Shown in pieces: positions 2,955-44,716 of a stretch of 64,000 nt of DNA. The notes under the pieces are model-generated. The model made no database searches. It was not told the DNA's origin and saw only the letters and a program-made list of their open reading frames with translations. The position numbers and the translations under genes are program-made. Origin of the DNA: Anaspis maculata (Eukaryota > Arthropoda > Insecta > Coleoptera > Scraptiidae); NCBI GenBank assembly GCA_949128115.1, contig OX421966.1, forward strand, positions 49,349,416 to 49,413,415. Direction: 5' to 3'. Within the stretch, counting starts at the first letter, position 1. Each line of letters begins with the position of its first letter.

Positions 2955-4525
2955 GTAGCCCAGGCGCCAGGTATCCCAATTAGAAAATAATTGTTTACTG
3001 GCTGGAAACTAGCTTGAAACGATCTGTGTAGCTTTTGGCTCAGGTTTTAACATACTAGTTTCCCCCCTTTCGGAAATGTCGGCGTCATGTCGCCATCATC
3101 AACAAGAAGTGCACCAGCGCGGATTTTGCCGAATAGCTTAGTTTTGGGTCATCTGACAGCAAAAAATTTAAGAAGTCATTTTGAAGCCTATGAAATTCCC
3201 TACAGTTTGGTTTTTGAATCAACTTTCTGCAACCTATGGTCTTTGAGATAGAGCTTCTGGAAGCGAGAGTCATTGTCGTGAAAGCTCCATGGCCACTTGA
3301 CTCGAAAAACTAAAATGTCGACGTGACAAAAAAAATTCAAAATGAGATTACTCGAGAATCCTTCATGCTATAGTTGCGGTGATAGTCTTAAACTCTACCT
3401 CTTGAATCGTGGAGTACGCACATTGAAAAGTTAAAAACGTCACATTTTACATATACAGGGTGAACTTACTGTACTTGTACTAAGGGAATCAAATCAGATA
3501 AGAGAAATTGGACATATTTCTTCGATTCAGCCTATGCGAAACTCTAAGCACTTATCACGAGTCCAATATCTACATGCATTGCTCTGCAAGCTTCACTTGA
3601 TACACTTAAGAAGTGGTCAGCTCACAGCTTTCCTGTAAAATGTTTTGAAGGCCCTCTGAAATCATCAAAATTTACAGTAGCAAGAATATGTTACAGTATA
3701 TTATATACCAAGGAACCAAAGTGAATTTTTGATCCCTTGGGTGAAGTTTGTTGGTCGAGAGCCCTTTGGGTCCAAATCCCCAAATTAAAAATTCACTTTG
3801 GTCCCTTGGTATATAATATACTGTTATATACATTTCTTGGTAGTGTAAATTTTGAATATTTTGATGAATTCAGAGGGCCTTCAAAACGTTTTACAGTAAA
3901 GCTGTGAGCTGACCACTTCTTTAGTGTATCAAGTGAAGCTTACAGAGCAAATCCATATTGATATTGGACATCGAAGAAATATGTAAAATTTCTCTGATCT
4001 GATTTGATTTTCTCAGTACAGCCTGTATATGTACAATGTGACGTTTTTGACTTTTCTATATTCGTAATCAACGGTTCAAGAGGAAGAGTTTAAGACCATC
4101 ACCGCAACTATAGCATGAAGGATTCTCGAGAAATCTCATTTAGAAATTTTTTGTCACATCGACATTTTAGTTTCTCGGGTCAAGTGACCATAGAGCTTTT
4201 AAGACAATGCCTCTCGCTTCCAGGAGTTCTATCTCAGAAACCATAAGTCGCAGAAAGTTAATTTAAAAACTATTCTGTAGGAAATTTCATTGGTTTCAAA
4301 ATGACTCCTCACATCTTTTGCTGTCCCAAAGTGACCTAAAATCAAGATATTCGGTAAAAACCACGCTGGTGCACTTCTTGTTGATGATGGCGACATGACG
4401 CCGACATTTTTGAAAGGGGGGAAATTAGTATGACAAAACCTAAGCCACACAGATCGTTTTAAGCAAGTTTCCAGCCAGTAAACAATGATTTCCTTATTGA
4501 GCTGATTTTTGCTCTCTGGCGCCTG
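2955..4525. repeat. Palindromic foldback element, about 1.57 kb (outer unit)
   Basis: Near-continuous inverted arms run from about 2955 to the axis near 3741 and back to about 4525. Position sums stay near 7483, so indels are few; GTCGGCGTCATGTCGCCATC at 3078 mirrors 4386-4405. The outer arms contain no intact gene; the mirrored short frames at 3085-3273 and 4229-4450 are by-products. A second TA-flanked palindrome (3456-4025) sits exactly on the axis. Removing it leaves the tip ACATA-TA-TATGT, which is self-complementary. Confidence 0.9.
3456..4025. mobile_element. TA-flanked palindromic element nested on the axis
   Basis: Starts CAGGGTGAACT after TA at 3454-3455 and ends AGTACAGCCTG before TA at 4026-4027, 570 bp in all. 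Both halves mirror each other down to a loop at about 3740-3783, with GTATATTATATACCAAGG and its mirror close to the tip. TA flanks with CAGGGTG-like ends fit a TA-targeting MITE, plausibly Tc1/mariner-derived (inference). No transposase is encoded. Confidence 0.8.
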
Positions 4526-5339
4526 GGCTATCTGGTCGAGTATTCAAAAATGGCTGTTATCAATGGCTCGTGGTTAGTGCGGCTTGAATGAGCAGAAGGT
4601 AGATCTGTTTCGACGCCAAAAGGGCTTCTAGGGTTAAACTCGCCATAACTTCGAGCATGGTCAAAATTATCTCATAACCCCTATTTCAAGAACCACCCGA
4701 CCTCTAAAAATTACTGAAAATTTAAAGTCGAATAACGACCAAAATAAACGGGGAATTTCGTTGAGTTTCTGCTACGGTATGCTCAAAGTGTTGCTGGTCA
4801 ATTATTCTTTGCATATCAACCCCTGAAATTTGACGTTCACCCTCCAATAAATAATCAACTTCTGCTCTGCGCTGGCGCTGTTAGAAATAAATTGTTTCTT
4901 GGTAAGTTAAAATAAATTTACACTGTTGTAGCATACTATGTGCTGAGAAAGGTTGGTCCAGATTGATCCCTTATGTCCACCCACATTTACCCCTATAGCC
5001 TCTATACTTACCCTGATAGTTTTTCCCGAATCGGCAGTGGAAGTACTCGTTGCATATTTTCTAGTGAATGTGTTCAACTAGTAATTTCTGGAAAAACTAC
5101 CAGGGTATAGGGGCTATAAGGGTAAGGGTGGGAGGACATAGGAGATGAATTCAGACCACCCTTTTCTAGATAAGATATAATATGCCGTAAAGTAGAAATT
5201 CATTTCAACTTCGATTCAAACTTAACCAAAGAAAAATTATTTTCAAAAGCGCAGAGCTGAAGTTGATTATTTATTGGAGAGTGAACATCAGATTTTAGGG
5301 GTTGGTGCACGAGGAATAATTGATCAGCAACACTTTGTA

Positions 5340-5946
5340 CAGGGTGTTCACGTTAAGATTGACCCCCCCACACTAGCCGGCTTATCCCTGAACCAATTTC
5401 AAAAATTAAAACTGATTCTTGAAGGTTTTTTGCCGAATTTTCAAATTTGCCCATAAAATTTTTCTAGATCCATATTATACAGGGCGTCGCAAAAAATCAC
5501 CTTGTTTTATTACATTCACAATTATTGAAATAATGCAATGGATGCAGACTTTTGTTCTCAATACAAATACATATAATATAAGACTTCACGGGTTCATTAT
5601 TCAAAAGAATCATAGGTTATTGAAAAAAAATCTTGAAATCGGTTTGATTGTGATTGTTGATATTTTAAACTGTTAAATTATTGATATTTTGACAGTTTGT
5701 CAAATGAACCCGTGAGTACTTTATTTTGTTGTAATCGGGATAAAAGACCGCATCAACTGCATGTTGAGGGAAATATATTTTTTGCGACACCCTGTAAATT
5801 TATGGTTTAGAAAAATTTTTTGGGCAAATTCAATAAATGCAGAAAAACTCCTTCAAGAATCAGCCTTCCTTTTTGAAATTGTTCCAGGGATAAGGCAGCT
5901 AGTGGGGGGGGGTCAATCTTAACGTGAACACCGCTCGGAACACCTG
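5340..5946. mobile_element. TA-flanked palindromic insertion in one arm
   Basis: Begins CAGGGTGTTCACG after TA at 5338-5339 and ends with CACCTG before TA at 5947-5948. The termini are CAGGGTGTTCACGTTAAG and its mirror, which is disturbed by a roughly 10-bp insertion near 5931-5940. Its own arms mirror each other (runs of C after the left end and of G before the right end). It carries a further palindrome (5480-5794) at its centre. The uninterrupted opposite arm of the host palindrome serves as the empty site. Confidence 0.8.
5480..5794. mobile_element. TA-flanked 315-bp MITE on a hairpin tip
   Basis: Termini CAGGGCGTCGCAAAAAAT and ATTTTTTGCGACACCCTG are near-perfect inverted repeats flanked by TA at 5478-5479 and 5795-5796. 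An inner pair, CACGGGTTCATT (about 5587) and AATGAACCCGTG (about 5703), gives a second stem. The ends match the GTGTCGC-type ends of the unit at 17340-18048, so these belong to one terminal-repeat family. Noncoding. Confidence 0.85.
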
Positions 5947-6158
5947 TACATACCGTGTCAGAAATTCAACAAAATTCCCCGTTTATTTTGGTCGTTAATC
6001 GACTTTGAATTTCCAGTCACTTTTCGAAATGCTAGGGGTGGTTCTAAAGATAAGGGTCAATGAAATAATCTTGACCAGCTCGCAGTTATGGCAAGTATAA
6101 CCTTAGAAGCCCCTCATGGCGTCAAAACAGATCCATCTTCTGCTCATTCAAGCCGGTA

Positions 6159-6744
6159 ATAGAAATAAATTAGTTCTGTGACCACCGGCACTCCACTCCC
6201 CCTAGCGGGTGAACCGTTGGGTTCAGAGGATTTGCGAATGATAAAGTTTGATCACCCCAACAAGGGCTGAGACATATTAAAATTTGAGCTGAATCACCCG
6301 AGGGGCCAAATCCCATGAATGTGCGGGGTCCTTTCGAAAGATCGGGTAAGTTTCTTCAGAATTAGAAGTGACATGTGGTTGAGCCTGATTGACTCTATCT
6401 GATTATCTGCCCAATCAGATCTAGACTGTGTGATCCAGTGTTGGGCAAGCTGAAGCTGACGACAAGACGTGTTTATCCGGCCAATCTTCGATTTTGTATC
6501 GAGATTAAACTCGAGATTAAAAAAGCATTTTAAGCTCCAAGAGACTAAGCTCTTGTTTATTGTTGTTGCACCGCGCAGTTCGCCCAGAAAACAACCGCAA
6601 AAATCCCGATTGGTCTCAAACAATGACGAAATCAAAAATAGCCAGAGAATCCAGAAGGCGGAGCTCGCCCGCCAGGCGCAAACAATCGCGGCAGGCGCAA
6701 CTTCCCCGTCGACTCGGGAGACTCGATCGCGGCACTCGCGGCAT
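6159..6744. other. Region upstream of candidate promoter
   Basis: No protein family is recognisable in the overlapping open frames on both strands (up to 152 codons, 6294-6752 minus). From about 6560 the sequence becomes CpG-rich (CTCGCCCGCCAGGCG, GCGATCGCG-type words) against an AT-rich background. This fits a promoter-proximal region of an arthropod gene transcribed to the right. Confidence 0.4.
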
Positions 6745-6779
6745 TCAGTCATGTGCCGCTAGATTCCGGAGAAGGACGT
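6745..6779 (+). promoter_or_regulatory. Candidate Inr + DPE core promoter
   Basis: TCAGTC at 6745-6750 matches the arthropod initiator consensus, with the A at 6747 as +1. GGACGT begins exactly at +28 (6774-6779) and matches all six positions of the DPE consensus RGWYVT. The spacing is the strict one known for TATA-less Drosophila promoters. No TATA box is seen at -30. The site lies in a local CpG-rich stretch and precedes a good splice donor at 7149/7150. The assignment rests on motifs alone. Confidence 0.5.
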
Positions 6780-7149
6780 ACGGCACACTCAATCCCCCGG
6801 CCTCCCGCGATCGCGAACACGCGACCGCGATAAAAAAAAAACAATCGCAACAGGACGATCCTCGTTTGTTTCGGCAAAGAAAGACACACGTGATCCGTGT
6901 GGCTAGGGCCATTTTTTCTTTCAAGAGTGCGTGAGTGATTGCGACGATCCCTTATCATTTTTAGTGCGCTCATTTTGGGTGATTTCGTGCCGCCTAGATT
7001 ATAATCCAATTTTGTCTGGGTTGAATTTTTTTCGGCTCCTTCTGCCTTCTGGAACGAACAGCCAACTTATTGTCTATCGTATCGTGCATGTGTGTGTGTC
7101 TGTGACATTGTTATTATTGCTGAGAACGATGTTGGAAATTCTTCATCAG
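6747..7149 (+). other. Candidate 5' untranslated first exon
   Basis: Bounded on the left by the predicted +1 and on the right by CATCAG|GTGAGATTGG, a near-ideal 5' splice site. At 403 nt it has no convincing coding frame. An open frame at 6931-7212 begins with GTG rather than ATG and runs through the donor, so a noncoding leader exon is the simplest reading. The downstream exons would lie to the right, possibly beyond the mobile DNA. RNA-seq would decide. Confidence 0.4.
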
Positions 7150-9146
7150 GTGAGATTGGCATTCGTGATGGGAACTTTGTTTTGTCTATTGTTTTTTTTT
7201 ATAGAGATATAAATAAAATGAATCGGAGTGAGTTTTTCTGATTTCACTCTGAGTATAATGGGATGGATGCATAACAAATTACTTAGGTAATCGCCCTATA
7301 ATCAAGTGTCATTCGAGTTGCACTCCAAGTTGTTTTATAAAGTTATGATTACTTATACGTCAGAAGATTTGATGATAATTGCTTATTTTGATGTGACACA
7401 TTCACACATTGTGGTGTAAACATTGATAAGCTATTCTTATCTTTTTATCTTGGGGCTTGTAGCTCCTGTAGATTTCCATTGTATTGTCTATTATTGAGCT
7501 AAATGGGCTCTTTTTGATAAACAACCCATTGTAAAAATGTCTCATTTCGTTGAAGGGACCTATATTGTACTCTGTCCATTGAATTGAATGAAAGAGATCC
7601 TCAAGAAATGACTATAGGCTCTACCACAAAAAAGCTTGGTTTAACGAAATAACTTGAAAGGTTATCTGAGAAACAATGAATGAAATGAGGGCTAAGTGGC
7701 CCTAAAAAGTCAAAACAAAAATTAGGAAGGTTTTGATGCAATAGAAAAACTTGTGTAACGGAATGATAGGTTTTTGGGGGCTTTTTTTAAATACAAATTT
7801 AAATTTGGCATGAACTTCCCCAAAAAGACATGTTGATTTTCTAAATATTCAAAATTTTCAGCAGTGCATGCAGTAAACACAGATACTATAGGGAAAATGC
7901 ACATATACTTGGGGCCTGTATCCCACCAATCTTGAAGTGGATACAAATTTCGACGAAATTTTCCCCGCCAAAAACAGCATGTGATGTCACAACCCTTACC
8001 AAGGTTGACAAGCTTTCCCATATCAGTGATTCACCCTGTATATTGAATAAATAACACTCATGCCAAACACTTGCAACTTTTTTTTTTATGTGGTCAATTT
8101 CATTTTGCACATTTTATGAAATAGCTAATATTTCAGGAACTAGGACCTTAGACCTTAATCCTCGCCTTAATAATTAATGATCTGTTAACGCCAGGTTCAC
8201 TCCAAACTGAAGAGAAATTTGATGAGAAACAAAAAATATGAAAAAGTGACAGCAGCATACTTTTTCTAATTGAAGTAATGCAACGTGACTTTATTGCACG
8301 CCACTGGTGCCCCCCCTCCCCAAATCTAATATTTTCATGAAGTTGTCCTTAGGGAGGCATCCAAAATTTTCTTTCAATCCAAGCTTTTTTTTGGAAGCTA
8401 TTGGGAAAGGCACCTTAGGTAATTTCTGAATCCAGGACGACTAAGAGTGCCATTAAAGTTAGCTCAGTTAAAACCGAGGTTAAAACTGAAACACCCTATA
8501 TTTTAGGCTTGTATCCGATCCTTGTTGAAACGTTAAATCCTCGGTTAAACCTACTTCTAAGTACTAACTATTACTTCTAACTAAAATGCAATGAACCATG
8601 ATGATCAGATTTCATACAAAACAAAAATTCATGCCGCACCACCACGACTTACTCACCATATTCAAACAGTATTACCTATTTATTATTAGCCGGAATGCCA
8701 GACCCCTCATCAAAGTCAGAGTTGATTAATATTGTAATAATCAATCAACGCGTTTGTGAAAAGAAACCTTGTTGACAAAACTCCCAATCAATCTGATGTC
8801 GATCATTATTGTTTCTAATCATGAATAAGAAAAAAAATCAATTCAATCAACATTAACGCGAGTTCCAAGCTTAATATCGAACTAACACATCGGTTTTACT
8901 TCGTCAAAGACAGGTAGAAGTAGTACAGACAGACAAGTAGGCACCTGATCAAAATCCATCTCCGACCTCGTCATCCACAAAGGAATAATAATGATGTGGA
9001 CACAATTATGCGGAGTTATTAAAAATTGGCGATCAATTTACAAAGTCTGTATTTTTTAGCAAATTTAAGTCATATTTTGCTTTTGAGAAACCGTTCTTTG
9101 AAGCGATAGAATTGTCCAAACTATCAAAATCTGTGAACTAAAACCA
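7150..9146. other. Possible intron or intergenic DNA
   Basis: AT-rich, without a credible gene. A lone CACCCTGTA end occurs at 8032-8040, the mirror of the CAGGGTG terminal motif. No matching partner was found to its left, so it may be a decayed or solo element end. GTTAAAACCGAGGTTAAAAC at about 8468 is a short local repeat. Confidence 0.4.
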
Positions 9147-10398
9147 TTAAATTCACGTTAGTCCGGGATCTTATGTGTCCCCGTGGCGGTATTTCTGAAG
9201 ACGGTTTGAAAGTGGTTTAGTTCGATGAGGTAGCATCCCTAGTTAAAGATTTTTTTTGGTGGCCATCGATCTGTGGCGTCTGGTAACCTTGATGGCCTCT
9301 TCAAAATGAAGACATAATTTTTTTTTCCATCTGTCAAATCTTTGATACCGCTCGTCCGATTTTCATGTAAGTAAGCTTATTTCAAAGAGAATTTTGACAC
9401 CTACACGAAGGTTGTGACAGATTTTTGACAAGTGATTTTGACAAAAAAATTATAACGGATGAGTCAAAAGTGAGACCGAACATGTATCATGATTACTTGA
9501 AACTCTGGCATTTCTTTATTTTTTGATAGATTTCCGCGATTTTTTTTTTTAATTGCAGATGAAATATTGGGAAAGACCTGAAAGATGTCAAACTGCCCAT
9601 TCTGATGTTCAAAAATATGACGGAGAAGAGTTTGATATTTTTTTTAATTGAAAATGTGGTTCAACTAGAAGGACAAAGCAGCCATTTATCTAAACAGTAC
9701 TGTCAAACTAATACCATTTTGAGATGAAACAAACCATTTAAAGTATATCCAGGTGCAAAACTCACAATGAATTTGGCTCGGACCAAAATTATGGCCAACT
9801 ATGTCAAAGCGTGTTTTCTCAGTTTTTCGTCAAAAAAATTACTATTTTGTGATTTTTTTTGTAATTTACCATAGATTGTCGACGAAATTAACTCAGAGTC
9901 TAGAGAAAGAACTTATCTATAGGTGCCAGTTGCCAAAGCAGGTATAGTTTCTAAAATCTTTTCGAATTTCTGGAATTTCGTGGATTTCCATGATATTTTG
10001 ACTTTTTTTCTCAATTTTAGTTTTGCCGCTTAATTGGGGCCCAATAATGTGCAAGCACCTGTTGAAGTGGTAGAGTCAACATCAAGGAATAGTTTTAGAA
10101 TTGGTGGCCATCACTGTTTGTCACGTGTGGATCCGCAATGAGAATTTTTTGAAATGACGTTTTGATGAAATTGTGAAAATTTGACATATTACCACAGCTT
10201 ACATTCTTATGTTTATGGGGCCTTCTCCACCTCCATCTTTTTCACCGATGCCATTCATTCAAACAAAAAGGTCAATGAAACACAGAATCAAACATATAAT
10301 ATCAATTTTGTAGCAATGTGATCATCAAATATCAATAATTTATACATGTGATTACAAATTATCATCACGTTTGAAATTGAACCTGATACGTGGTAAGC

Positions 10399-11205
10399 TT
10401 AGTATGAATATACTATGAGAAAAATATGTGACAAGTAATTTATGAACCCTTCCCTTCTTCCTCGTCCTTTCTTCTTCCTTCCCCTTTTCTTCGTCTTCTT
10501 CTTCGCCGCTAGCGTGATCAGGATCACAGTTGGCATTTTGGCACAAGTCCTCATCACCCCCGCATCGCATTCACACATTAGAGTGCACGGCAGTTTGTTG
10601 GCTAGGCATTTGCAGGGTGCAGCACATCTGTTTTTCAAGCAGGAGCACCTGATTAACTTTACTGTTCTATCCGGAGCGCAAGGCATTTCATAAAGGTCAG
10701 GTGTAACTTGTCCATCGCTTTCTATTAGTCTCCAGCCGTGACCAACTGGGGATGGTAGAGTAGGCAGAGCAACACAATCCAAACTCCAGATATAAGCTTG
10801 GTAGTTCACCCTTTTCAATGCCGGCAAGAATGAATGAGCTCCGAGTCGGAGGCAACTTTTCTCAGCTAGCTTGCTTTTTTGAAAAAAGGTACCAACGCAG
10901 CTGAGCCAGCGTGGTGAAGTTGGGTACTCCCCGGTTGATAAATATAGTAAATTAATTTCTCCATCGCATCGACGACTTGCTCGGTGATGGCATCCAAGGT
11001 GCCTAATGCTGCAATCGTCTTCGATCGTCTTGATCATCTCTTTGTCACATCCGATAAATGCTTTCCAATAAGAAAGCTTTTCCTTGCCGAATAAAGAGCC
11101 GCACGTGTCACACCCCGACAAAGCGTGAAACGCAGGCAACGCCGATGACTTCGCACTGCCCAAACCATTGTAGATGTCTCAAATGCTTATAATGTTTTTT
11201 GTAGG
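10399..11205 (-). pseudogene. GCDT-family protein fragment (left arm)
   Basis: Minus-strand remnant of a protein family that is multi-copy and usually uncharacterised in arthropods and other metazoans. Visible blocks, in order, are ALPAFHALSGCDTCGSLFGK, then KRVNYQAYIW, LPSPVGHGW, and a Cys-rich tail (CSCLKNRC..CKCLANKLPC..CEC). The stretch between GCDT and KRVNYQ is read out of frame in the single open frame. The tail also changes frame before the expected final cysteines, so the copy is broken. The N-terminal EEADT/DTD part is absent from this arm. Function is unknown; the family assignment comes from recognised motif order. Confidence 0.55.
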
Positions 11206-11439
11206 TGGTATTAAGACCTCCCCAACCCACCCCTCTTATAATTATTACCCAAAGAAAGAATAAGAAGAATCCTCTCAAGTTGAAAAATTAAGTGTGGCCG
11301 TAATCGTGATTGTCTAGTGGTGTTTGTTAGGACTCTCGTTGTGTTGTAGTTACCCAAGGTAGTACAGGTAAAGTGAAGGCTTGGAAATGAGAAACAGAGA
11401 CTTTCGAATCAACAAAAAACAATTTTATTTCAAAGACAA

Positions 11440-11670
11440 ATATATCAATTCATGTCCGGAATGCATATCAATGTAATTTAATGAAATCAATTTAATATCA
11501 TACAATATTCAATAAATTCAAAGGTGTGTCAATTCAATACAATGAAATATCAGTTTAATTCAATATGTAATAAAATGCAATGGAAAGTCAGTTCAATACA
11601 AATCAAAGCAATGCCAATATCAATTCAAGAGAGTTCAATAATAATTCACTCAAATGCAATCAATTCAATA
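11440..11670. repeat. TTCAAT-rich low-complexity tract
   Basis: Irregular reiteration of TCAATTCAATA-like words. It lies at the centre of the 5.1-kb palindrome, between the end of the left arm and the N-terminal coding remnant. Origin unknown; the frame translated across 11580-11690 is an artefact of this tract. Confidence 0.6.
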
Positions 11671-11689
11671 ACCCCCCAAAAGACACCGA

Positions 11690-12975
11690 GAAGCGCATCG
11701 TTGTGGCTTGGCGTGCAGAAGTTGAGTCTACACACTGTGATTTACAACACCTGCGGAGTACTCACGAAGAAGCGGATACGAAAATTATCCTACACAGCCT
11801 GGACGCAGCAATGAGAGGAGCATCAGAGCTGCACCTGTATGCTCAAGACACAGACATACTAGTACTAGCGATACGACGATACCCGCTACTGCCCAAGAAA
11901 AGCTTCTTTATACCAACTACAAAAAACATAAGCATTGGAGACATCTACAGTGGTTTGGGCAGTGAGAAGTCATCGGCGTTGCCTGCGTTTCACGCTTTGT
12001 CGGGGTGTGACACGTGCGGCTCTTTATTCGGCAAGGAAAAGCTTCCTTATTGGAAAGCATTTATCGGATGTGACAAAGAGATGATCAAGACGATCGAAGA
12101 CGATTGCAGCATTAGGCACCTTGGATGCCATCACCGAGCAAGTCGTCGATGCGATGGAGAAATTAATTTACTATATTTATCAACCGGGGAGTACCGAACC
12201 TCACCACGCTGGCTCAGCTGCGTTGGTACCTTTTTTCAAAAAAGCAAGCTGGCTGGGAAAAGTTGCCTCCGACTCGGAGCTCATTCATTCTTGCCGGCAT
12301 TGTCGGGGTGTGACACGTGCGGCTCTTTATCTGACAAGGGATAGCTTTCTTATTGGGAAGCATTTATCGGATGTGACAAAGATCTGATCGGGACGATTGC
12401 AGAATTAGCCACCTTGGATGCCATCACCGAGCAAGTCATCGATCATCGATACGATGGAGAAATTCATTTGCAAAATTCATCAACTGGGGAGTAGGTAACT
12501 TCACCACGCTGGCTCAGCTGCGTTGGTATACCTTTTTTCAAAAAAGAAAGCCCCGCTGGGAAAAGTTGCCTCCGACTCGGAGCTCATTCTTGCCGGCATT
12601 GAAAAGGGTGAACTACCAATAGCTTATATCTGTCGTTTGGATTGTGTTGCTCTGCCTAATCTACCATCCCCAGTTGGTCATGGCTGGAGAATAGAAAGCG
12701 ATGGACAAGTTACACCTGACCTTTGTGAAATGCTTTGCGCTCCGGATAGCATATTAAAGTTGATCAGGTGCTCCTGCTTGAAAAACAGATGTGCTGCACC
12801 TTGCAAATGCCTAGCCAACAAGCTGCCGTGCACTCTAATGTGTGAATCACAGATGACGTGTGAATGCAGGGGTGATGAAGACTTGTGCCAAAATGTCAAC
12901 TGTGATCCTGATCACGCTAGCGGCGGAGAAGAGGACGAAGAAGAGGAGGACGAGGAAGAAGGGGAGGGTCCATGA
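11690..12975 (+). pseudogene. GCDT-family protein, decayed longer copy (right arm)
   Basis: Plus-strand copy that retains the N-terminal blocks STHEEADTKIILHSLDAA and LYAQDTDILVLAIRR, then ALPAFHALSGCDTCGS. KRVNYQ-like and Cys-rich blocks follow downstream. The acidic spacing (EEADT, DTD, GCDT) resembles the metal-binding acidic pattern of PIN/FEN-like nucleases; that is inference. A 303-bp tandem duplication (12001-12605) splits the gene. In the second unit the frame reading TLAQLRWY and KLPPTRSSFLPALKR is closer to the family than the first unit is. The frame ends in an Asp/Glu-rich tail at about 12930-12975. At least one frameshift and the duplication make it a pseudogene unless spliced. 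Confidence 0.55.
12001..12605 (+). repeat. 303-bp direct tandem duplication
   Basis: CGGGGTGTGACACGTGCGGC starts at 12001 and again at 12304. The downstream text (TTATCGGATGTGACAAAG, ACCTTGGATGCCATCACC, TTGCCTCCGACTCGGAGCTC) repeats in the same order. The units have diverged by substitutions and small indels. It is present only in the right arm of the palindrome, so it arose after the inverted duplication or was lost on the left. Confidence 0.85.
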
Positions 12976-14790: not shown

Positions 14791-14792
14791 TA

Positions 14793-15251: not shown

Positions 15252-15294
<43 letters not shown>

Positions 15295-17048: not shown

Positions 17049-17339
17049 CTAAGGGGCCTACGAAAATTATTCCTGCATCCAAAATGGCGGCCGATTCAAA
17101 AAATGGCGACTTGAATACGTGAAAATGTCTTATTCGCCCCATTGTACACGACGGTAACCATAATAATCGTGACAGATGCTCAATTTTCTGTATACAGGGT
17201 GTATGCGCGAGGTAAAACACTCCTCTTCACCGAACGGTTCTCCTTGGAGGTATTTTGAAAAAGCTAAAACTAGTCCTTTTGTAATTTGTTCCGTAGCTCT
17301 CAAATTTGCTCATCATATATTTATTCAACTCACAAAATA

Positions 17340-17380
17340 CAGGTGTTCAAATTTTTTTTTGCAATTTTTGCGACACCCTG
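17340..17380 (-). mobile_element. 41-bp ends-only mini-element
   Basis: TA, then CAGGTGTTCAAA, an A/T-rich centre, GCGACACCCTG, then TA (17381-17382). It consists of little more than two different element ends joined back to back. An inverted partner lies at 18009-18048, and the GCGACACCCTG end also occurs at 5784-5794. Confidence 0.65.
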
Positions 17381-18008
17381 TAAATTAAAATTATTGTCAT
17401 CTGTGGAGCTTTCTAATCTCACTTGCGAAGATTGTATTCAAGGCAGCCAGGAGATACACTACACTCTATATTCTACTATATTCAGACTATATTCATGTTA
17501 AAGGTATGAAACTTGCTACACTCCTTGGGAAACCGTTTGAAACAGTTCTGCCCGAGGTGCCAATCAAAATTATGGCTGCGTCAAAAATGGCTGTCGTTTC
17601 TTACTATGGCGGCTTACATATTATGGGAATCGTGTATTCGTAATCGAATGTATTCGTGCGATTGTTGTGCTTTCATCAGTTTCAGAATAGCTGAATCTAT
17701 GGGAATCGACATCCTGCGGGATTTAATCGGACGAATACAGGATTCTAACATCTGTTGGCCGCCATTTTGGACCCAGTCATCATTTTGATTGGCACCTCGA
17801 GCAGAACTGTTTCCAACAGTTCCCCAAAAAGAGTGTAGCAAGTTCCATACTTCTAACATGAAGTGTAGTGTATCTCCTGGCTGCCTAAAATACGGTCTTC
17901 ACAATTCAGATTTATTCATGTTTGAGGAAATATTTGGAAAGAAACCCGTATGTGTCACACATTTTTGTAATCAGTATAGGAAGCTACATAAACTACAATA
18001 TAAAATTA

Positions 18009-18048
18009 CAGGGTGTCGCCAAAATAAAAATAAAATTTGAACACTCTG
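18009..18048 (+). mobile_element. 40-bp ends-only mini-element
   Basis: CAGGGTGTCGCC, an A/T-rich centre and TTTGAACACTCTG, flanked by TA at 18007-18008 and 18049-18050. Inverted partner of 17340-17380. Confidence 0.65.
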
Positions 18049-18839
18049 TATATTGAGTAAAGTTCCCGAAGAACTTTTCTTCTGAGCCAAGTGTTAATGA
18101 CTGTGTGAATAGTGTATTATGTTACGTATTTGAAACTGGAAATTTGTTGATTACTGATAAGATAACTAATATAACCATTATTGTGTACATATCAATCCTT
18201 TGCCGCTGGACATCAGGGCTCTTCCACTCAAGTCTGTTAAAGCGAAAGTCAAGGCCTATCTAACCGAGAGGGCATTCTATACATTGGATGAGTACTTTGA
18301 GGGAGATTTAAAATTTTGAACCTGACTGCGGAACGTGTATGTTTCATGTCGTTCGGTTCCGTTTATGTGTTGCATCAAATAATTGTTAATCAAGTGTTAT
18401 TCTTGTATTGTACATCTACTGTGAAATTGTTGAGGTACCTATTATGGACTATATGCCTGTTTTTTTTTTTGCTTTTTGTTAGTTGATTTTAGGGTTAAAA
18501 TACCTTGTTAAAAAGGGTCCCTCAAAAAACATATATATCTATGACCAAATGCAAAAAAAACACTTAATAAAAAGGGTACCTTCCTATGACAAAAAATAAG
18601 TCGATAAAGGAGTAAAAAAAAAATACTGCCAATTTTCAAATGACAATTTAAATTTTCAATTTATTGATAATTCAGAAGTTTTCTTCACACGATAATCCCA
18701 CCCCCAATTTTTCAAGGACTGACTAGCGGTTCGTGGCTTTTCACTTCATTGCGTCGAGCGCATATCTTGAAATACCAAAACCTGCTGGACATTGGCCAAA
18801 CTTTCAAGCGGTGAGAATATTTAGGACTGCATCTAATTT

Positions 18840-31003: not shown

Positions 31004-31037
<34 letters not shown>

Positions 31038-34247: not shown

Positions 34248-34375
34248 ATATAAGATAGAAAAATTTGTCAATATGTTTCAGATCTTCCCCTCGATATAAA
34301 AATCGACTTGTCCGAGCTTTTTTCAAAAAAATGAAGTGAAATGCCCATAAACCCCTCTGTTGTGTTTTCGTTGGG
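34248..34375 (+). repeat. Truncated copy of the 27385-27658 element
   Basis: AAGATAGAAAAATTTGTCAA, CCTCGATATAAAAATCGAC and TTTTCGTTGGGCC follow in the same order and spacing as at about 27530-27650. The copy lacks both CAGGGTG-type termini. Confidence 0.75.
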
Positions 34376-35611: not shown

Positions 35612-36340
35612 TTCATAGACCAAGAGCTAGCAACATTTTATTTACCTCATAAGCAAAATGCCGTTTGACTTCTGGGGCATGTAAAGATTATTATTGGCTT
35701 CCATAAAATATTTGTCTTATGAAAAACACGCCTTGCTTTCTCACAAGGCAAGCAAAGAAATGGGCCATTTGACAGCAATATTCAAGGGCGGTTTTCCTAG
35801 TGTTCTAAATCGATATGAATATCAATTCATCAGGAATGGATAGGTTGAACTATCTTTCAAATAAATTGATAGGAACCGAATCTCGGAATGTATTAGAAAC
35901 TACCGAAAACCAGACTTTCTCAACTGGCATGTTCAAGCTAGTGGGCTATGCCGAGCTATTTGGATCACATTTGATGGCCGATTCTCGAATCACGTCTACT
36001 AGAAAAACCGGTGCCAACTTCCGTCCGCTTGGAAATCTGGTTTCTGGTAGTTTCGAATACATTTCGATACTCTTTTTCATTAAAATCAGTTGAAAGATAG
36101 TTCAATCTATCCATTCCTGATGAAATTTATACTCATATCGATTAAGAACTCCAGAAAATCCGCTGTTGAATACTTCTGTCAAATGGCACATTTCTTTGCT
36201 TGTCTTGTGAGGAAGCAAGAGGTGTTTTTCATGAAACAAATATTTTATGGAAGCCCATCATAATCTCCACATGCCCCAGAAGTCAAACTGCATTCTGCTT
36301 ATGAGGTGAATAAAACGTTGCTAGCTCTTGATCTATCATG
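35612..36340. repeat. Foldback element, about 0.73 kb
   Basis: GAATGGATAGGTTGAACTAT at 35834 mirrors 36097-36116. The outer ends ATAGACCAAGAGCTAGCAAC and GTTGCTAGCTCTTGATCTAT pair as well. The axis is near 35975, with a loop of about 120 bp. The open frame at 35815-36093 spans the loop and is not a gene. Confidence 0.85.
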
Positions 36341-36419
36341 TCTAATGTCCATGAAGGTATGCAGTCAACCTTTTAGAAAACTTTTGGGTCGTTTATGTAA
36401 CATATCTAGAGGGGCTGCC

Positions 36420-36765
36420 ATGGCACACCGCTTCAGCCGCGGTGAAACTTGACTGCAGCAACGCGGAGGTTGTGAGGCAGTTCGGAATTAGGACGGGCAG
36501 ACTCCATCCAATCCCAATAAAGCTGAATTACCCCTCTCGGGCGGTGGGCGGCCCTGAGCAAGCTCAAAGTATTACCCTTGCAACCGGCAGTACAACAATG
36601 TGTGGATGATAACCGCCAGCCTATGACGCGGAGACCTGCCCCAGCGTTGGGGGCTCTGGCGAAGGCTTGATGCACCGCGCGTGTGGCGGGTCCAACGCTT
36701 GGATAAAGGGATGGACCTACCATCAGATATCCAAGCATCATCACATTGCGGCTCGGTAAGTTCGG
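36420..36765. other. GC-rich island, possible retroelement 5' region
   Basis: A sharp rise in GC against the flanks. On the minus strand a 103-codon frame (36433-36744) and a 75-codon frame overlap without recognisable domains. The sequence style (GATGCACCGCGCGTGTGGCG) resembles untranslated leaders of insect LINEs. That is an impression, not a match I can verify. Confidence 0.3.
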
Positions 36766-37967
36766 CTGGTCTGGGGTAGGGTGGATATAATGGGCTCAAA
36801 CGTGAGGTCTACGTACCGGATGGAACTCGTTGCTTCCCTCATCAAATCCAGAGTCCAGAAACATGATTTAGAAGATAGGCACGCACACGCTCTTTATTTA
36901 TTTAGTGCGGCTAGAAAATTTGAATCTGGCTTCCATTTAACAGGCACAAAAAGTGGCAGCGTTTTGTAAAAGAGCGGCCTTCAAGCAAGCTATTGCTGTT
37001 CAAGTTGATGAATCCCAAAAACGTCCGTCGTTACGCCTCAGCACAAGGTAGCTAGCTATAAAAGAAAATAATCGAGTTAAAAAAGCCCAGACTCAGGGAT
37101 CGATTAGGAGTGTGGAAAAGGACAAAGCACAACAGTTATGCTCGCCTCTTCCACGCGCGACTTTCCGCCGTTTTCTCTCGCAGTTTTCGCCTCTTCGAAC
37201 TCGTAAACTTTCGATTCGGTGCCACTTCATGCCACCAAAACACGTGTTCTATATTTGTGAAATTGGGCAACAACATCGTCGTTATGTCGAAGGAGAGAGA
37301 CCCGGGCTAAATATCGAGTAAAAGCGGGAAAATGCCAGCCAGAAGGGAAGACGAGGAAGGGTATATTTAGACCTGTTGCACGTTTGTCAGGTCAGCGTCT
37401 CCGCAAAGCGCGTGGCGGCTGCGGCTAGAACCTCCGTCCTCATGCTCTACTACTACGCCCGCCGCCACCACCGACTTCTGGATGTTTAAAATAAGCGATG
37501 TCAGAAGTATTTTTAGGTTTTCAAAGGGGGCGCTTTCTTTTCGAGATGCCTGAACATAATTTAAATATGATGCGTGGTGTGTGGGCAAATAATGCCGAAT
37601 GAGAAGATTGGTTCTGGCGGGACGGGAGCTCGAGCTAGTTGGCACACGATTTTATGAAGAATTCATTATATTCCTCATGTGCCCAGGCAGGCGGCAATAA
37701 TCACGGAAGGCATCCCGTTGACAGGCGACATGCAGTGTTGCCAGCATTGTTGTCGTTATTAATTAGATCAGATATCCGTGGATCAGATAGATGTCAGCAT
37801 GATGCTGTCTGAATCGAAGTCACTGAATCAAGATGGCTTTCGATTTATAACTTCAATTCCCAGGTACCGTCAATTTCAGTCAGTGGCGCTGAACCATGAA
37901 CTCATAAAAAGTTACAATGGCGAAGAAAATTTTAGACCCCCCCCCCCTATTGCCTCACTACGGTCGG

Positions 37968-37970
<3 letters not shown>
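36766..37970. other. Intergenic DNA, no gene supported
   Basis: Mixed-composition DNA with short overlapping frames (up to 92 codons). A C-run at about 37937-37947 lies just left of the LINE poly(A). Confidence 0.4.
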
Positions 37971-38000
<30 letters not shown>

Positions 38001-40345
38001 CGGGAGGAGAGGAATGCCTTTACGCACACCCCGGCTGGACAGCACCGGGGTAGTGTGGGACTCACCGAAGCACTACCCACTAAACCTCTCCTCATGCCTG
38101 GTGTTTATCCTCCTATTGGGACCGCGGGGAGCATTGCTTCAATAGGAGGTTGGCAGATGGTGGTTGAGAGGCGGCCTCGTACTGGCTCTTTCGACCTCAT
38201 TTCTTCTCAAGGCTTCTTCTTCTTCACACCGCAACATCGGCAGCTACTTTGTTACGGTATTCTCGTTCTCGTTCCGCCTTTGCTCTTGCTTGCATAACTT
38301 CCCTGATGTAACCTGTGATAGTCTGCCAGTTCGCTTCGTTTTTCAGCATGAGAGCCACCAGATTTGTTCCAGACACCGCGGTGTCCACGTCACGTTCCAA
38401 CTTTTCTCGAGCATCAGCTGTTCCAGCGCATGCGAACAGGGCGTGCTCGGGATCATCAAGGTCGTTCCCACACAAGTCACATATTGCGTCCTGGCATTTT
38501 CCTATTCGGCGCCTGTAGTTGCCGAAGCATCCGTGGCCTGTCAATGCTTGCGTTGTCCAATGGTCGAGCTGTCCGTGTGCACGCGTGGTCCATGGCTCCA
38601 AGTCCTGTATAAGGTTTCTTGTCCAGTTTCTTTCTGTTCGCCATCTTGCAGACCATTTGTCCACAAGAGTCCGTCGTGCTTCAGCTTTACATTCTTGATG
38701 TGTATGGCCTTCCCGGCACTCATGGATCTGGGACCTCTCCGCCGCAAGTAGGTCGAACGGTGGCAAGTTGGCCAGCACTGCTGCTGACATATTGGAGACA
38801 GTTCGATACGCGCACGTGATTCTCAAAGCTGCCTTTCGAAACTCCTTTTGCATCGGTTTTGCGGTCGGTGCTTTGTCTGTGACGGCTTTCCCCCATATCG
38901 GAGCACCGTAGAGTGCGACAGACGTATATACACTCGTCAGCAGTCTTCGCTTGCTTGTATTTGCGCCATTAATGTTTGGCATTATACGGCTGATCATTGC
39001 TACAACTCGTCCTACTCTTCCCGCAGTCTGTCGAATATGTTCCGCAAATTTCATTTTGCTGTCCAGGATCACCCCCAGATACCTGATGTTGGGCTTGAAC
39101 TTGACTTGTGTACTTCCGAAGACTAAAGTTGGTGGCTGAAGTTTTCTTTTCCGTGTCACCAGCAGCGCCTCTGTTTTCTCTGCGGCAACCTCCAATCCGT
39201 GTTTCTTCATCCACTTAAGCACCAGCGTAAAGGCTTTATTTGTGTTCTCTTCTACATCCTCGATCCATCTACCGTGCGCCACGATAGCGACGTCGTCGGC
39301 AAAGCCAATAATTCCTACGCCCGTTGGCATTTCTATCCTCAGGAGGTCATCGTAAGTGACATTCCACAGCTCCGGACCAAGGATGGAGCCCTGCGCCACG
39401 CCAGCTGTACTTGCAAACTTCTCTCCTTCATAAACGATCGAACGTCCAGTGAAGTAACTCCTAATTATCGAGAAAAGCCGCCCTGTGACTCCTCGCTTCT
39501 CTAGTGCACGCAGAATCTCACTTCTCGGGATCGAATTGAAGGCATTCTTCACGTCAATTGTGACGATGACGCAATGCCCCATTGTTTTGAGTGTTCCCTT
39601 GGTTGCCTCTTCGGCAATCGTCTTCACTTTTTGTATTGCATCGATTGTAGACATGCCACGCCGAAACCCAAACTGGTTGTCGGACAGCGTCTTATTATTT
39701 CGTTCCATAGCCTTCCGAATCCGTTCCAGGATAAGGTTTTCAAGTATTTTTGTCCAAGAATCCAACAGGCAGAGGGGTCGATATGACGCCGGTTGTCCCA
39801 CAGGTTTATTAGGTTTTCTCAGCAAAACCAGTCTTCCAGTTTTTCCCGCGCTGGGGAAGTAACCCTTTTGAAGGCACAAGCTCATAAGATGCCTGAGCGG
39901 TTCTGGCCTGAACTTGACTATGGCTTTTAAAATCTCGGCCGGTATTCCATCAGGGCCTGAAGCTTTCCGATTTTTCAATCGGTTGGTCGCTGTTGCAAGC
40001 TCTTCGATGGATACCTCATTTGTGTCATCCGCATCCAACTCTTCGGTGTTGACAATCAAAGGGTGGTTGGGGAACAAATAATTCACTATTTCCGGCAGCT
40101 TTTCTCTAGGTACTCTAGCAGGGCCTTGCAGCCTTTTGGTTAAAATTTGATAGGGCTTACCCCAGGGGTCGGTATCCACCTCCTGGCACAGTTTATCCCA
40201 GCATTCCGCTTTTGCCTTCTTCATCTGTATATTCAGCTGTTTCTTTTTTTCCTTGTAGTCGTTCCACATCAGCTGCGTAGCTGAATTTCTGCGTAGCGCT
40301 CTCATATAAACTCTTCTACAGTGGTTGGACCTGGGGTCCTAAGAG
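37971..40345 (-). mobile_element. 5'-truncated R1-like non-LTR retrotransposon
   Basis: Reads right to left. The 30-nt T-run at 37971-38000 is the poly(A) tail of the minus-strand copy. A 3' untranslated region of about 220 bp (38001-38223) follows, then an uninterrupted reverse-transcriptase frame. Upstream of the first ATG the reading frame continues for a few codons (CRRVY) and then meets a TAG near 40340. No endonuclease domain is present, so the copy is truncated at its 5' end, as is usual for target-primed insertion. Target duplications could not be defined. Confidence 0.85.
38224..40305 (-). CDS. Reverse transcriptase of R1-like LINE (partial ORF2)
   Basis: A 693-codon frame from ATG at 40305 to TGA at 38224. 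Order of parts: an N-terminal basic helix-rich segment ending in DPWGKPYQIL. Then RT with KPVGQPASYRPLCLLDSWTK, DNQFGFRRGMSTIDAI, VTIDVKNAFNSI and the catalytic FADD box at residues 335-338. Then GFxPNIRYLGVILD-type thumb sequence, and a C-terminal zinc knuckle starting CDLC at 609-612 with EHALFAC. The FADD box and C-terminal CCHC are typical of the R1 clade. The apurinic-like endonuclease that should precede RT in ORF2 is missing. The absence of internal stops suggests fairly recent insertion, but the protein could not drive retrotransposition on its own. Confidence 0.85.
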   Translation of the reverse strand: MRALRRNSATQLMWNDYKEKKKQLNIQMKKAKAECWDKLCQEVDTDPWGKPYQILTKRLQGPARVPREKLPEIVNYLFPNHPLIVNTEELDADDTNEVSIEELATATNRLKNRKASGPDGIPAEILKAIVKFRPEPLRHLMSLCLQKGYFPSAGKTGRLVLLRKPNKPVGQPASYRPLCLLDSWTKILENLILERIRKAMERNNKTLSDNQFGFRRGMSTIDAIQKVKTIAEEATKGTLKTMGHCVIVTIDVKNAFNSIPRSEILRALEKRGVTGRLFSIIRSYFTGRSIVYEGEKFASTAGVAQGSILGPELWNVTYDDLLRIEMPTGVGIIGFADDVAIVAHGRWIEDVEENTNKAFTLVLKWMKKHGLEVAAEKTEALLVTRKRKLQPPTLVFGSTQVKFKPNIRYLGVILDSKMKFAEHIRQTAGRVGRVVAMISRIMPNINGANTSKRRLLTSVYTSVALYGAPIWGKAVTDKAPTAKPMQKEFRKAALRITCAYRTVSNMSAAVLANLPPFDLLAAERSQIHECREGHTHQECKAEARRTLVDKWSARWRTERNWTRNLIQDLEPWTTRAHGQLDHWTTQALTGHGCFGNYRRRIGKCQDAICDLCGNDLDDPEHALFACAGTADAREKLERDVDTAVSGTNLVALMLKNEANWQTITGYIREVMQARAKAEREREYRNKVAADVAV

Positions 40346-41636
40346 CCCCCCATGCAGTTAGCGCCGCAGGCTAAATTTTTTCGAAATATAATAATATCAA
40401 CAAAAATAAGCAAAAGGAGGGTAGCCGCTGACCAAATTGTCCATAGATTTCATCATCTTTTGCACAAAAATCGAAAGTTTTTTTGTGAGATCGTATGATT
40501 TTCCTAGTCCATTTAGTTGGCTGTTCAAACACCGATGATCAAAACCTTTTTGCCTCTAGTCCAATAAGGTGCTATGAAATTATTGGTTATATGAAATATT
40601 TTCAAAGATGAATACCTCTAACAGCGAAAAACAGTTTTGTGAAAATTGTAAAGAAAAAACAGGTTTTCTCAAAGTGACTTGTCCGAACTTGTTTTTATTC
40701 AAATTTACTTATTGGATTCAAGTTCAGGACATTTAATTTAGTCGGAAAAGATACCAATCTTGTCGTGATCCATTCTTCATGATCCATGAAGAAAAAGAGC
40801 TACCCAGCCGAGTTTCGCCCTCCCCTGCGACCCCCCTCCAACAACGATCGACACTTTTTGAGCCAAAATTGTATCAACGGGATGTGATGCGTCGAACTAC
40901 GACGTATTTACATCAACTGGATTGACGGGTTTCATCGGGTTCCATACCCTGAATATTGAGTTGCAATTTTTTACCTCCCCTCTAATAGCTCGAAGCTTCG
41001 GGGTGCAATTTTTGGCGAGTTTGGATATGTGATAGGGATAGGGCACTCAATTCTAAACAAAATATCAAATTTTCAGGGCGTCCATATTTTTGCCGAGGTT
41101 TTGGCAATTTTTTTACTAACTTTCCTGTACTTGAACAAAATTGGCCTTAAAATGTATGAAAACAACGTGTGAAGGCAGCATTTGATACTTTGCTTGTGAT
41201 AATGTACTCTTTACTCATTTCTACATGTAGTTTTAACTGAACAGAACTAAAAAATACCGACTGCGGTACCAGAGACCGGCCAGAAATAATTTTTGCAGAA
41301 TTTACCCCCAGCAGGTATGTTACCTGCAATACAGTGCCTCTGGTGCACAATCTTGCGTGGCGCCACATCTGGAATTGTGAAGGAGGGCCTTCTGAACACG
41401 TATGCCAAATTTCATGCTTTGATCACAAAATGCGCAGATCATTCCATTTTTGGCCGTTAACCCCGCCACTGATACTTTCAAAACAACTAAATATATCAAT
41501 AATTGATAGCCAGCCACATTGCAAGGGTCTGTATTTTTTTTTCATTTCTTGGCGCACGAATGAATAAGCCAACCTAGCGAGTTCGAAGTGTACGTTTCCG
41601 TCTCTCTGACTCCACCACTTTATGTACCGTGTGATC
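40346..41636. other. Intergenic DNA, no gene seen
   Basis: AT-rich, short unrecognised frames only. Confidence 0.4.
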
Positions 41637-41745
41637 AAAAACTATTCTACTTGCGGTAGGCTGTGGCGTGGGCCTGGCCAAAATCAGCCTCGTTCGCCTG
41701 CCAATGACCAGGCCACAGCCTACCGCAAGTAGAAAAGTTTTTGTT
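41637..41745. repeat. About 105-bp hairpin
   Basis: TACTTGCGGTAGGCTGTGGC pairs with GCCACAGCCTACCGCAAGTA, and AAAAACTATTC with GAAAAGTTTTT, around a loop of about 35 bp. Confidence 0.9.
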
Positions 41746-42898
41746 CATAAGGGATAAGCTGATGCAGAGCGAAAGAGAAACAGATAGATTCTTGTGGCGT
41801 GAGTTTCTGCCAAATTTGTGCAACTAAAAATGTAACAAAAAAATAAGTTATTCAAATCTAGGCTGGCATGAGAATGAGGGTTTTTTTTCTGAAAATATAT
41901 AAAAATTTTGAAAAAAAATTCTAGATTTTCGAATTTTGAAATTTTGAAATACTTACACGTTTTCATACTTGATTTTAGATTAGTTACTCTTCTTTTTTTC
42001 AAACCTCCTACTCTACTGGTTGTCATATGTATCTCACGTTAAAAAAAACAGTAGGAAAAGCCGTCCTTAAGTAAGTGTGAAACTTAACCCACCAACCACC
42101 TACGGCCTCCCCTACCTACTATACCAAGTTTATTTGAAAGAATACGCGGAACAAAAAGAAGTCATTATTTGTCGGGATCGCAGTCAAAAAATTTCCCGTC
42201 AACTTATCAAAAGGAGAGAACAAACGAAAGACTATGGCTCTTAAATTGCGTTTAATTACCGTAATGTGTCTAATTAATTACTTGATTAATCGCAGAGTTA
42301 ACGACGCCGTTCTGTTCTCTGTCCCCGCGCACGCAACCATTTAGGTTTGTTTTGTTTTTGTCATGACGCTTTGAAAAACGCCCTAGAACGATTTCGTACA
42401 ACGATATGACTTGTCGGGTAGGCCTTTTCATATCTATGATTAATTCGTATGTCGTCACTTTTCACACGTAGGTAGGTATTAGGTATCCTAACAATATATT
42501 AATTGATAACGCACGGACTCTATTATGGTAATTGAATTGAATAATTAAATATCAGAAAATCCTTGTCGGGCGAGTGGTCGGGCATAAGCCTCCAGCATCG
42601 ATCATCGATCGGTCGATTAGGGAAGTTTTCAGCCAGAATTTGAATAAATTAAAAGTGTGAATCACTCGGCATACCTACCTATTTCTAAAAATATATAGTG
42701 GTCGTAAACCTTCGACTTTGAATCAAAAAGTAAACCAGTTGTAAAAATAACGCACCGAAACTTCATTTGCTTGCGGTTTTTCTAAGCTTTCATTGCTTGC
42801 AATATATGGAGTATGAAATCTATGAAAAAAATATCAGAAAAAATTACGACTTTTTGAAATATTATTTGATAAAGTGATTCTGGGTAACTGTTTGTGAT
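41746..42898. other. Intergenic DNA, no gene seen
   Basis: AT-rich with A- and T-runs; short frames only. Confidence 0.4.
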
Positions 42899-43018
42899 GG
42901 TCTAATCAGTAAAAATTATCAACCGCTAATCGTGCACTAAATAATGTTCATTTAATGTACCTACTGGGTGATTCATAAATCTCAAAAATTCATTTAATAA
43001 TTTTCACTGATTAGTCCA
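42899..43018. repeat. Small hairpin next to the 43-kb palindrome
   Basis: GTCTAATCAGTAAAAATTAT pairs with ATAATTTTCACTGATTAG, with a loop of about 75 bp. Confidence 0.8.
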
Positions 43019-44716
43019 TCTCAAATAAACTGCTTGACAATTGAACTGCAACACCTAAAAAATTAGGTGCGTTTTCAAATTGAGGTAGCTCAAAAAATAT
43101 TTGACGGATTCCAGAAATTTAGACATGTGAAGAAAGATCATTTCTTTGACTATCGAGTGCTGGTATTGATGATAAGTTTGATCGCACAATTTGTCATATA
43201 CAGGGTGCCAACGGAGAGCGTGCAGATATGGGCAATCTTTCACCTTGTACAACTTTTGAAAAAAAAGTCCGAGATTTTTTCTATCACCTGATTTTGAAAA
43301 CTTGTATCATTATGCCGAAACGGTTTTGGAATTTCGACCTTAACTTTTTTTTTCAAAAAAATTGTGCCCAATTTTCTGAAATATGCACCTTCTGATTAAG
43401 AAAAAGAAATAAAGACATTGTTTGTTTTCAAACGGCGTCCATATTGAATTTGCTTACAAAGATTTCCATTTGAGCTTCCACATCCCCTATAAACTACCCC
43501 TTTTGGGACACCGTCCCACAACAAGATATGCAATGCTTCATTTAAAAGGCCTAAGAAAAGTTCTCATCAATAATTGGATTTAAATAATGATACTACGATG
43601 ACCCCACACGTACAGCACCCTAAAAACCACGCATTGACTTCAAGGGACAGGGACAGGGTTGGTATGATAAGACATGCAATACATGAAAATTCCAAAAAAC
43701 GTCTTTTTCAACTGTTTCACTAAAAAATTGATGCTACACGATGACCCTTTGCGTAGGTCATCCCAACAGCTACCCTCTCGAAAAAAGACCTACCCTTCAA
43801 AAGACCAGTAGGTACTTCCGCAATACCTCATTTGTTAGAATTTTTTAAAATCTGTCGCAATAGTTTGCCGATACGATTTTTTTTCTTTATAACAACAATG
43901 GAATTTTACAATCTGCCCTAACGGGCAATAAGTAAAAGGTACAAGAAACAAAATAAATCAGCGTTGGTCAGAACATTACAATAAATGCCTAACATAATGA
44001 AAAACATTCCAAATCATTGCCGCTACGATGATTTCATTCATATATCTACCCGAAACTACCCCTTCAATATCTCATAGCTTTTGCCTTGATGCGTTATTTA
44101 CGAGTCAAGGGGTGGTTTTTAGGGAGCTGTACGTGTGGGCTCATCGTAGTGTCCTTATTCTAATCCAATTATTGATTAGAGTACATTTCTTAGGCCTTTT
44201 AAATGAAGCATTGCATATCTTGTTGTGGGACGGTGTCCCAAAAGGGGTAGTTTCTGGGGGATGTGGAGGCTCAAATGAAAATCTTGGTGGGCGAATTCAA
44301 TATGGACGCCGTCTGAAAACAAACAATGTCTCTATTTCTTTTCCTTAATCAGAAAGTGCATATTTCAGAAAGTTGAGCACAATTTAAAAAAAAAGTTAGG
44401 TTCAAAATTCCAAAACCGTTTCGGCATGATGATACAACCTTTCAGAAGCAGGTGATAGCGAAAATCTCGGATTTTTCTTTCCAAAGTTGTATAAGGTGAA
44501 AGATTGCCCATATCTGCATGCTCTCCGTTGGCACCCTGTAGATGACAAATTGTGCAATCAAACTTATCATCAATACCAGCACTCGACAGTCAAAGAAATG
44601 ATCTTTCCTCACATGCCTGAATTTCTGGAAATAGTCAAATATTTTCTGAGCTATCTCAATTTGAAAACGCACCTAATTTCTAGGTGTTGCAGTTCAATTG
44701 TCAAGCAGTTTAGTTC
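43019..44716. repeat. Palindromic foldback element, 1.7 kb (outer unit)
   Basis: GCGTTTTCAA at 43069 mirrors 44661-44670 (sum 87739). The outer blocks AACTGCTTGACAATTGAACT and its complement also pair. The outer arms converge on a TA-flanked palindrome (43201-44538). Deleting that leaves the tip TTTGTCAT-ATAG-ATGACAAA. Mirrored open frames (43055-43252 and 44487-44798) share peptides such as MYKVKDCPYLHALRWHPV and are not genes. Confidence 0.9.
43201..44538. mobile_element. TA-flanked 1.34-kb palindrome on the axis
   Basis: Starts CAGGGTGCCAACGGAGAGC after TA (43199-43200) and ends CTCTCCGTTGGCACCCTG before TA (44539-44540). Arms mirror inward (GGGACACCGTCCCACAACAA pairs with its complement near 44224). 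The axis at about 43870 is the same as that of the enclosing palindrome. No transposase frame. Confidence 0.85.

Follow-up and report, generated by a model that had tools for sequence, protein, structure and literature searches.

Why a transposon-like sequence should lie at the very centre of a larger palindrome, and why this layout should recur within one short region, is the question raised by a 64,000-nucleotide stretch of the Anaspis maculata genome (contig OX421966.1; C6:49349416-49413415), referred to here as the window. The window is rich in palindromes and contains the word TACAGGGTG 15 times, against 0.12 expected (50 first-order simulations, maximum 1). A preliminary description had claimed that, at three loci, a TA-flanked element with CAGGG-type ends shares its centre with a larger palindrome. 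Arm-to-arm alignment confirmed all three nests, with limits slightly corrected: in each, a pair of ends of the type TA/CAGGG is centred on the axis of the larger palindrome. The features are as follows.

O1, 2956..4530 (TA 2956-2957 to TA 4529-4530), unstranded: palindromic, probably non-coding repeat element with TA/GCCCAGGCGCC at both ends, from the fold alignment.
I1, 3456..4025, unstranded: inner palindromic part of O1 with TA/CAGGG bounds, from fold and copy alignments.
O2, 43026..44712 (TA 43026-43027 to TA 44711-44712), unstranded: palindromic repeat element with TA/AACTGCTTGACAA at both ends in the window copy.
I2, 43201..44538, unstranded: inner part of O2 with TA/CAGGGTGCCAACGG bounds, its centre varying among copies.
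W, 5340..5946 (flanked by TA 5338-5339 and TA 5947-5948), unstranded: CAGGGTGTTCACG-ended element with palindromic outer arms of ~140 bases.
V, 5480..5794, unstranded: inner, weakly palindromic part of W with TA/CAGGG(T/C)GTCGC bounds.
XY, 4580..6155, unstranded: larger palindrome with arms 4580-4781 and 5949-6155 and centre 4784-5337, carrying W in its right arm.

The left end of I1 has a private 15-base insertion in the window copy, the family consensus there being TA/CAGGGTGTACTACGGG, and the palindromy of V is weak (82% over 90 aligned columns, plus 31 gap columns). W, together with V, was inserted off-axis in one arm of XY; on its removal the XY arms continue, with two mismatches at the junction.

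When the inner piece and one TA are taken out, the two arms of every outer palindrome meet directly at a central TA (for W, to within about 1 bp). The resulting virtual empty sequences contain 57, 19 and 15 TA sites; in all three the TA that was used is the one on the axis. A random pick among the TA sites would give all three axis hits with p ~1/(57 x 19 x 15), roughly 6e-5, a value that is descriptive, the loci having been chosen for their symmetry. Random choice of TA is therefore a poor account of the founders.

To place these loci in the genome, the whole assembly (757.8 Mb, 50 contigs) was searched; L-numbers below are labels for genome loci read outside the window. The copies read for O1, O2 and W were the best-scoring for each query among 692 to 2876 first-look candidates, so that diverged empty outer palindromes or solo inner elements may be missed. 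With the left outer arm of O1 as query there were 2876 first-look candidates, of which 40 were scored and all 40 non-window hits read (20 loci with wide flanks and 19 as tips); with one additional neighbouring copy in L038 this gives 41 copies, and every one of the 41 carries the I1 end at the O1 tip. Alignment of 21 copies, omitting the right-truncated L044, gave a family consensus of ~1591 bases with TA/GCCCAGG at both ends, unrelated flanks beyond, and an inner junction of CATA-TA/CAGGGTGTACT. In one copy (L086) I1 is interrupted by unrelated sequence starting 11 bases in, and L041 holds two O1 copies back to back, a couple of bases apart.

The O2 query gave 1385 first-look candidates and 40 hits, of which 27 were read (7 with wide flanks, 20 as tips) and 12 were left unread. 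The I2 end is at the O2 tip in all 27 further copies. On the query side, TA was seen at the end of all 8 copies examined, that of the window among them; the opposite end was seen in the window copy only. Between the O2 arms, 31 left/right differences are fixed in three copies; L074, L076 and L077 share only part of these, in similar numbers per arm. From this pattern the root palindrome seems to have had nearly equal arms, the subtypes having split before the two arms had diverged much.

The W query gave 692 first-look candidates; 40 were scored and every non-window hit was read (20 wide loci and 19 tips). V lies directly at the W tip in 34 of the 39 copies (16 of 20 wide loci, 18 of 19 tips) and is present behind an insertion in two more (L060 and L062). 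Of the other three, L121 breaks before the tip, L058 has another CAGGG element followed by only the inner part of V, and L068 has another CAGGG element at the W tip, V being absent. We considered whether different CAGGG elements had been exchanged into the tip of W in L058 and L068, and rejected this: their right junctions fall within V and the right arm of W, so they are better read as off-axis insertions, probably followed by loss between direct CAGGGTGT repeats. L062 was similarly rejected as a W without V, its V lying ~8.7 kb away past an insertion at the W/V junction, with both halves carrying a matching GTCCAGTCAAA end. TA directly precedes the left end of W in 17 of 21 copies, window included. 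Near the W tip of L060, positions 1633-2770 are inserted sequence that has CAGGGCCGGCAAC at its ends and comes with an 8-base duplication, TCTAGATC; this insertion and the sequence interrupting L086 both look hAT-like.

The converse search, with V as query, gave 462 candidates and 39 non-window places; flanks were read at 29, 7 were W copies already covered and 3 were left unread. None of the 29 copies read is a solo V. Recognisable W is found on both sides in 27 of the 29; in L141 it is displaced by ~120 bases, and in L140 the other half, L062, lies 8.7 kb off. Twenty of the V copies were read with 60-base flanks and the presence of W was judged by eye (the right side of L147 matches over only ~12 bases). 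Within these 60 bases L155 and L156 have W on the right side only, the left being unlike W right up to TA/CAGGG; here either the inner end may itself have served as a terminus, or there may have been an insertion at the junction.

The three loci are thus copies of three repeated families, with the inner pair of ends fixed inside, and at most three founder events are represented. Independent local insertions at the three loci, which we had considered, are ruled out by the family-wide nests. No clean empty tip occurs in the 41 O1, 27 O2 and 39 W copies read. The preliminary description had proposed looking for outer palindromes with empty TA tips and for the inner element outside palindromes; these copies showed no clean empty tip and the 29 V copies no solo V. 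The axis coincidence that it saw is real and recurrent. Of its two explanations, insertion targeted to an exposed TA tip is not supported by these copies. It had named outer palindromes never found without the inner one as the sign of a single element, and that is what the copies read present.

Is the layout peculiar to these families? We scanned 237 kb of genome (the window plus the fetched loci, the latter chosen for O1 and W, which makes their flanks a convenience sample) for TACAGGGTG at matching arm positions, more than 40 columns inside, in 74 other palindromes, with O1, W and O2 copies set aside and nearby axes merged. Eight symmetric pairs face inward and one outward. The same scan with 150 shuffled words averaged 0.40 inward pairs, never more than 3, and 0.37 outward pairs, never more than 5. 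The outward pair of window locus 17338-18050 was merged away from the scan; counting it makes the outward number 2. Two of the eight inward hits were discounted, L054 1638 as a W copy and L069 2620 as a register shift, and among the remaining six, L031 and L037 772 are the outer ends of mini elements that stand in mirror image in both arms. Four of the eight are clearly axis-centred (L033, L054 1968, L055 and L069 2767); L037 1070 and L066 have an axis-centred look but fall below the scan cut. The axis-coincident layout therefore recurs outside the window and outside the three families. Some of these nests are likely to be related: L054, L055 and L066 look like one lineage and L031 looks distantly related to W, while the resemblance of L033 to O2 is mainly in the terminal bases. 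Given these shared lineages there were perhaps five or six independent founders.

Complete mini elements are mirrored in both arms at window locus 17338-18050, L031 and L037. The window example is an element of ~41 bases (TA CAGGTGTTC...GCGACACCCTG TA) found at 17338-17382 and 18007-18050, on both outer sides of the palindrome. At L055 2250-2370 the arm end and the inner end seem partly repeated at the tip, as if copied twice near the axis.

The same set of palindromes was examined for tips. Omitting 21 of the 74 (9 with nests and 12 that align the same repeats in overlap or at an offset) leaves 53 that are unoccupied, and none of these 53 has a spacer-free TA tip. Four have a spacer of 2 or less; none of the four is TA-centred and all have arms of <75 columns. 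Among the 34 palindromes with arms of at least 100 columns, spacers are never shorter than 4 and have a median of 140 bases. A Fisher comparison of 3 of 3 with 0 of 53 was post hoc and is given no weight.

How, then, did the founders arise? The account we favour, and to which we give about an even chance, is that an already nested transposon pair underwent foldback duplication and then spread as a unit. It would start from a transposon, H, already carrying a second, TA-inserted transposon, I. In a foldback (snapback) inverted duplication with its turning point inside I, a 3' single strand would fold back and prime synthesis, giving a mirror copy of the TA junction together with the near halves of both I and H. 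All boundaries outside the turning point would be mirrored about a single axis, with no need for targeting, and complete small elements farther out would be mirrored in both arms. Its two matching H ends could then let a putative transposase acting on them spread the whole product as one unit. We infer the founder event, its order, the transposase and the amplification driven by matching ends alike. Hairpin-primed foldback inversions are documented in yeast, where the loops have a median of 36 nt if Mre11 and Sae2 are normal (PMC7467729); as the available part of that source describes them, they resemble the event proposed here in being hairpin-primed inverted duplications with a central loop, but are laboratory-selected chromosomal rearrangements and not transposon families.

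Foldback of a nested pair is preferred because it never needs a spacer-free TA-dyad stage, and because it accounts jointly for the inward-only ends and the mirrored complete elements. Several observations speak for it: the inner ends fixed at the tip, the lack of solo V in the 29 copies read, the lack of spacer-free TA tips in the 53 palindromes, outer and inner layers that do not differ significantly in divergence in any one consensus, the nearly equal arms of the O2 root, and mirrored mini elements, which it would lead us to expect. The preliminary description had offered outward growth by inverted duplication as one explanation; inverted duplication is retained here as a founder event, and its stepwise form is weighed separately below.

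Other observations count against a foldback origin. Consensus arm divergence (outer/inner) is 0.050/0.070 for O1, 0.107/0.168 for W (9 sequences) and 0.049/0.085 for O2 (3 sequences), which is not significant for any single family (p 0.32, 0.32 and 0.20); when the three are pooled, divergence is slightly higher in the inner layer (p = 0.04), as would fit stepwise growth better than one event. Conversion between arms could equalise layers, blur their ages or mirror an insertion. The target preference of the ends is symmetric (TA/TA for CAGGG ends, T 69%, A 69%, 52 ends; TG/TA for W-type ends, 80%, 84%, 25 ends), which for CAGGG elements renders a TA dyad a more favourable target than was supposed. 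The spacers of the 34 longer palindromes, with a median of 140 bases, exceed the yeast median loop. Finally, we found neither a birth locus nor a host element that carries I and is not itself palindromic, and the solo-inner test covers V only.

Arm-to-arm conversion is suggested by a neighbouring 4.9 kb palindrome at 44826-49731, which has TA/CAGGATGGTCC and TA/CAGAGTGGTCC ends. About 1.9 kb of each of its arms is nearly identical, the central arms are ~83% identical, and the outermost 50 columns have 7 mismatches.

The best surviving alternative, which we regard as unlikely for the founders, is that a second TA-specific element hit the dyad TA of spacer-free palindromic elements, either because a cruciform exposes the tip, as the preliminary description had suggested, or because local symmetry around a TA attracts the transposase; as palindromes lacking a spacer are unstable, mainly those rescued in this way would survive. 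The symmetric target preference may raise the chance of a hit on a TA dyad, so this explanation keeps some weight. The virtual empty tips of O1 and O2 are CATATATATG and fit the Caenorhabditis elegans Tc1 target consensus CAYATATRTG as given in the available part of its source (PMC9635669), and in these two families the inner and outer ends are of different types. Against it, a suitable tip was found in none of the 53 unoccupied palindromes or the family copies read, V is never solo in the 29 copies, and the insertions seen within family copies miss the axis: by 225 and 424 bases in the O1 copies L029 and L047, and with roughly 60 bases to the V centre in L054, L058 and L072, where three different CAGGG elements entered one TA-rich tract of V. 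For plant LTR (long terminal repeat) retrotransposons, the part of one in silico study available to us reports only a weak palindrome preference (PMC6911290).

Stepwise outward growth, which appears to us quite doubtful, would make I a lone palindromic element at first, a later inverted duplication primed by the inverted repeats of I itself having mirrored the flank to give younger outer arms. The outer arms would then be spacer-free automatically, and inner arms are slightly more diverged in all three consensuses, the pooled difference being that noted above; no family reaches significance singly, however, and no solo palindromic V occurs among the 29 copies read.

In Tc1-like elements of the inverted repeat/direct repeat (IR/DR) type, each repeat contains an inner transposase site resembling the outer end. 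That the inner TACAGGG is such an internal direct-repeat-like site, one element thus having two binding sites per end and nesting never having occurred, we consider improbable: the inner offset from the outer end is often ~120 to 175 bases (W 141 and O2 175 in the consensus; L031 144, L033 171, L037 124), TATACAGG is kept at the matching place in W and its distant relative L031, and inner and outer ends are alike in L069 and L066 and partly so in W, but the outer ends of O1 and O2 are unlike the inner CAGGGTG ends, as are those of L033, the O1 offset is ~500 bases, and TA precedes the inner motif as at a true end.

As to classification, O1, O2 and W have features of miniature inverted-repeat transposable elements (MITEs): inverted terminal repeats in the fold alignments, and high copy number by the first-look counts above (40 scored for each), with ends defined in 21 aligned copies for O1. 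They may also lack coding capacity, as no stop-to-stop frame of at least 150 amino acids lies inside them. The TA target duplication of Tc1/mariner elements is present in O1 and W, and in O2 with its second end from the window copy only. CAGGG-like ends are also known from the hAT superfamily; the 8-base target duplication of that group was not found, O1 and W ends showing TA only.

Among described elements, Rhodnius prolixus MITE_83.0 (TACAGGGTGACCAGAG, listed as 'Tc1-like ?' in Table 2 of PMC4678618) is similarly repeated with TA beside CAGGGTG ends, and is non-coding as the elements here probably are, but the available part of that source describes no concentric second pair of ends on the axis. 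The C. elegans Tc1 target resembles the sites here in placing TA within a symmetric AT-rich motif; the CAGGG elements here differ in having only a putative transposase and in ends that generally favour TA/TA, or TG/TA for the W type. Galileo, Tetris and Tm1, foldback-type elements compared by description only, share the long inverted repeats but are listed under other superfamilies, and the descriptions at hand do not mention concentric ends. The idea of sequential central deletion in Stowaway MITEs (PMC1925063) likewise ties nested palindromes to one element; those palindromes, in the part of the source available, are of decreasing size at one site, whereas here two end types share one axis in one copy. 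The literature searched, with partial coverage, held no description of the concentric layout, which is weak evidence of novelty, and a search for TACAGGGTG returned no transposon paper among the matches listed, as far as titles show.

Other features of the window lie apart from the nests. A 375-base direct repeat, 100% identical (51355-51729 and 57384-57758), surrounds a minus-strand frame of 1750 amino acids (51870-57122); by its structure, 51355-57758 looks like a recent LTR retrotransposon. A reverse-transcriptase frame of 704 amino acids at 38227-40338 has its best named matches, ~40% identical, in arthropods. A scan of viral contigs for TACAGGGTGTNNCAAAAA returned 20 stretches.

We know of no settled account of the origin of long palindromic MITE families. 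These families show that nested end motifs at one locus need not imply nested insertions at that locus. It is a tentative suggestion, one we hold with some doubt, that foldback of nested transposon pairs has been a recurrent source of new transposon families in this genome. If so, the mirroring of one host end would give a nested element two matching ends and let it spread as a concentric palindrome, and its concentric layers would be a readable record of the nesting at the time of foldback. Some high-copy MITEs would then be repair by-products that regained two matching ends, and if foldback of nested elements does make MITE families, concentric end motifs would provide a sequence test for it in any assembled genome.

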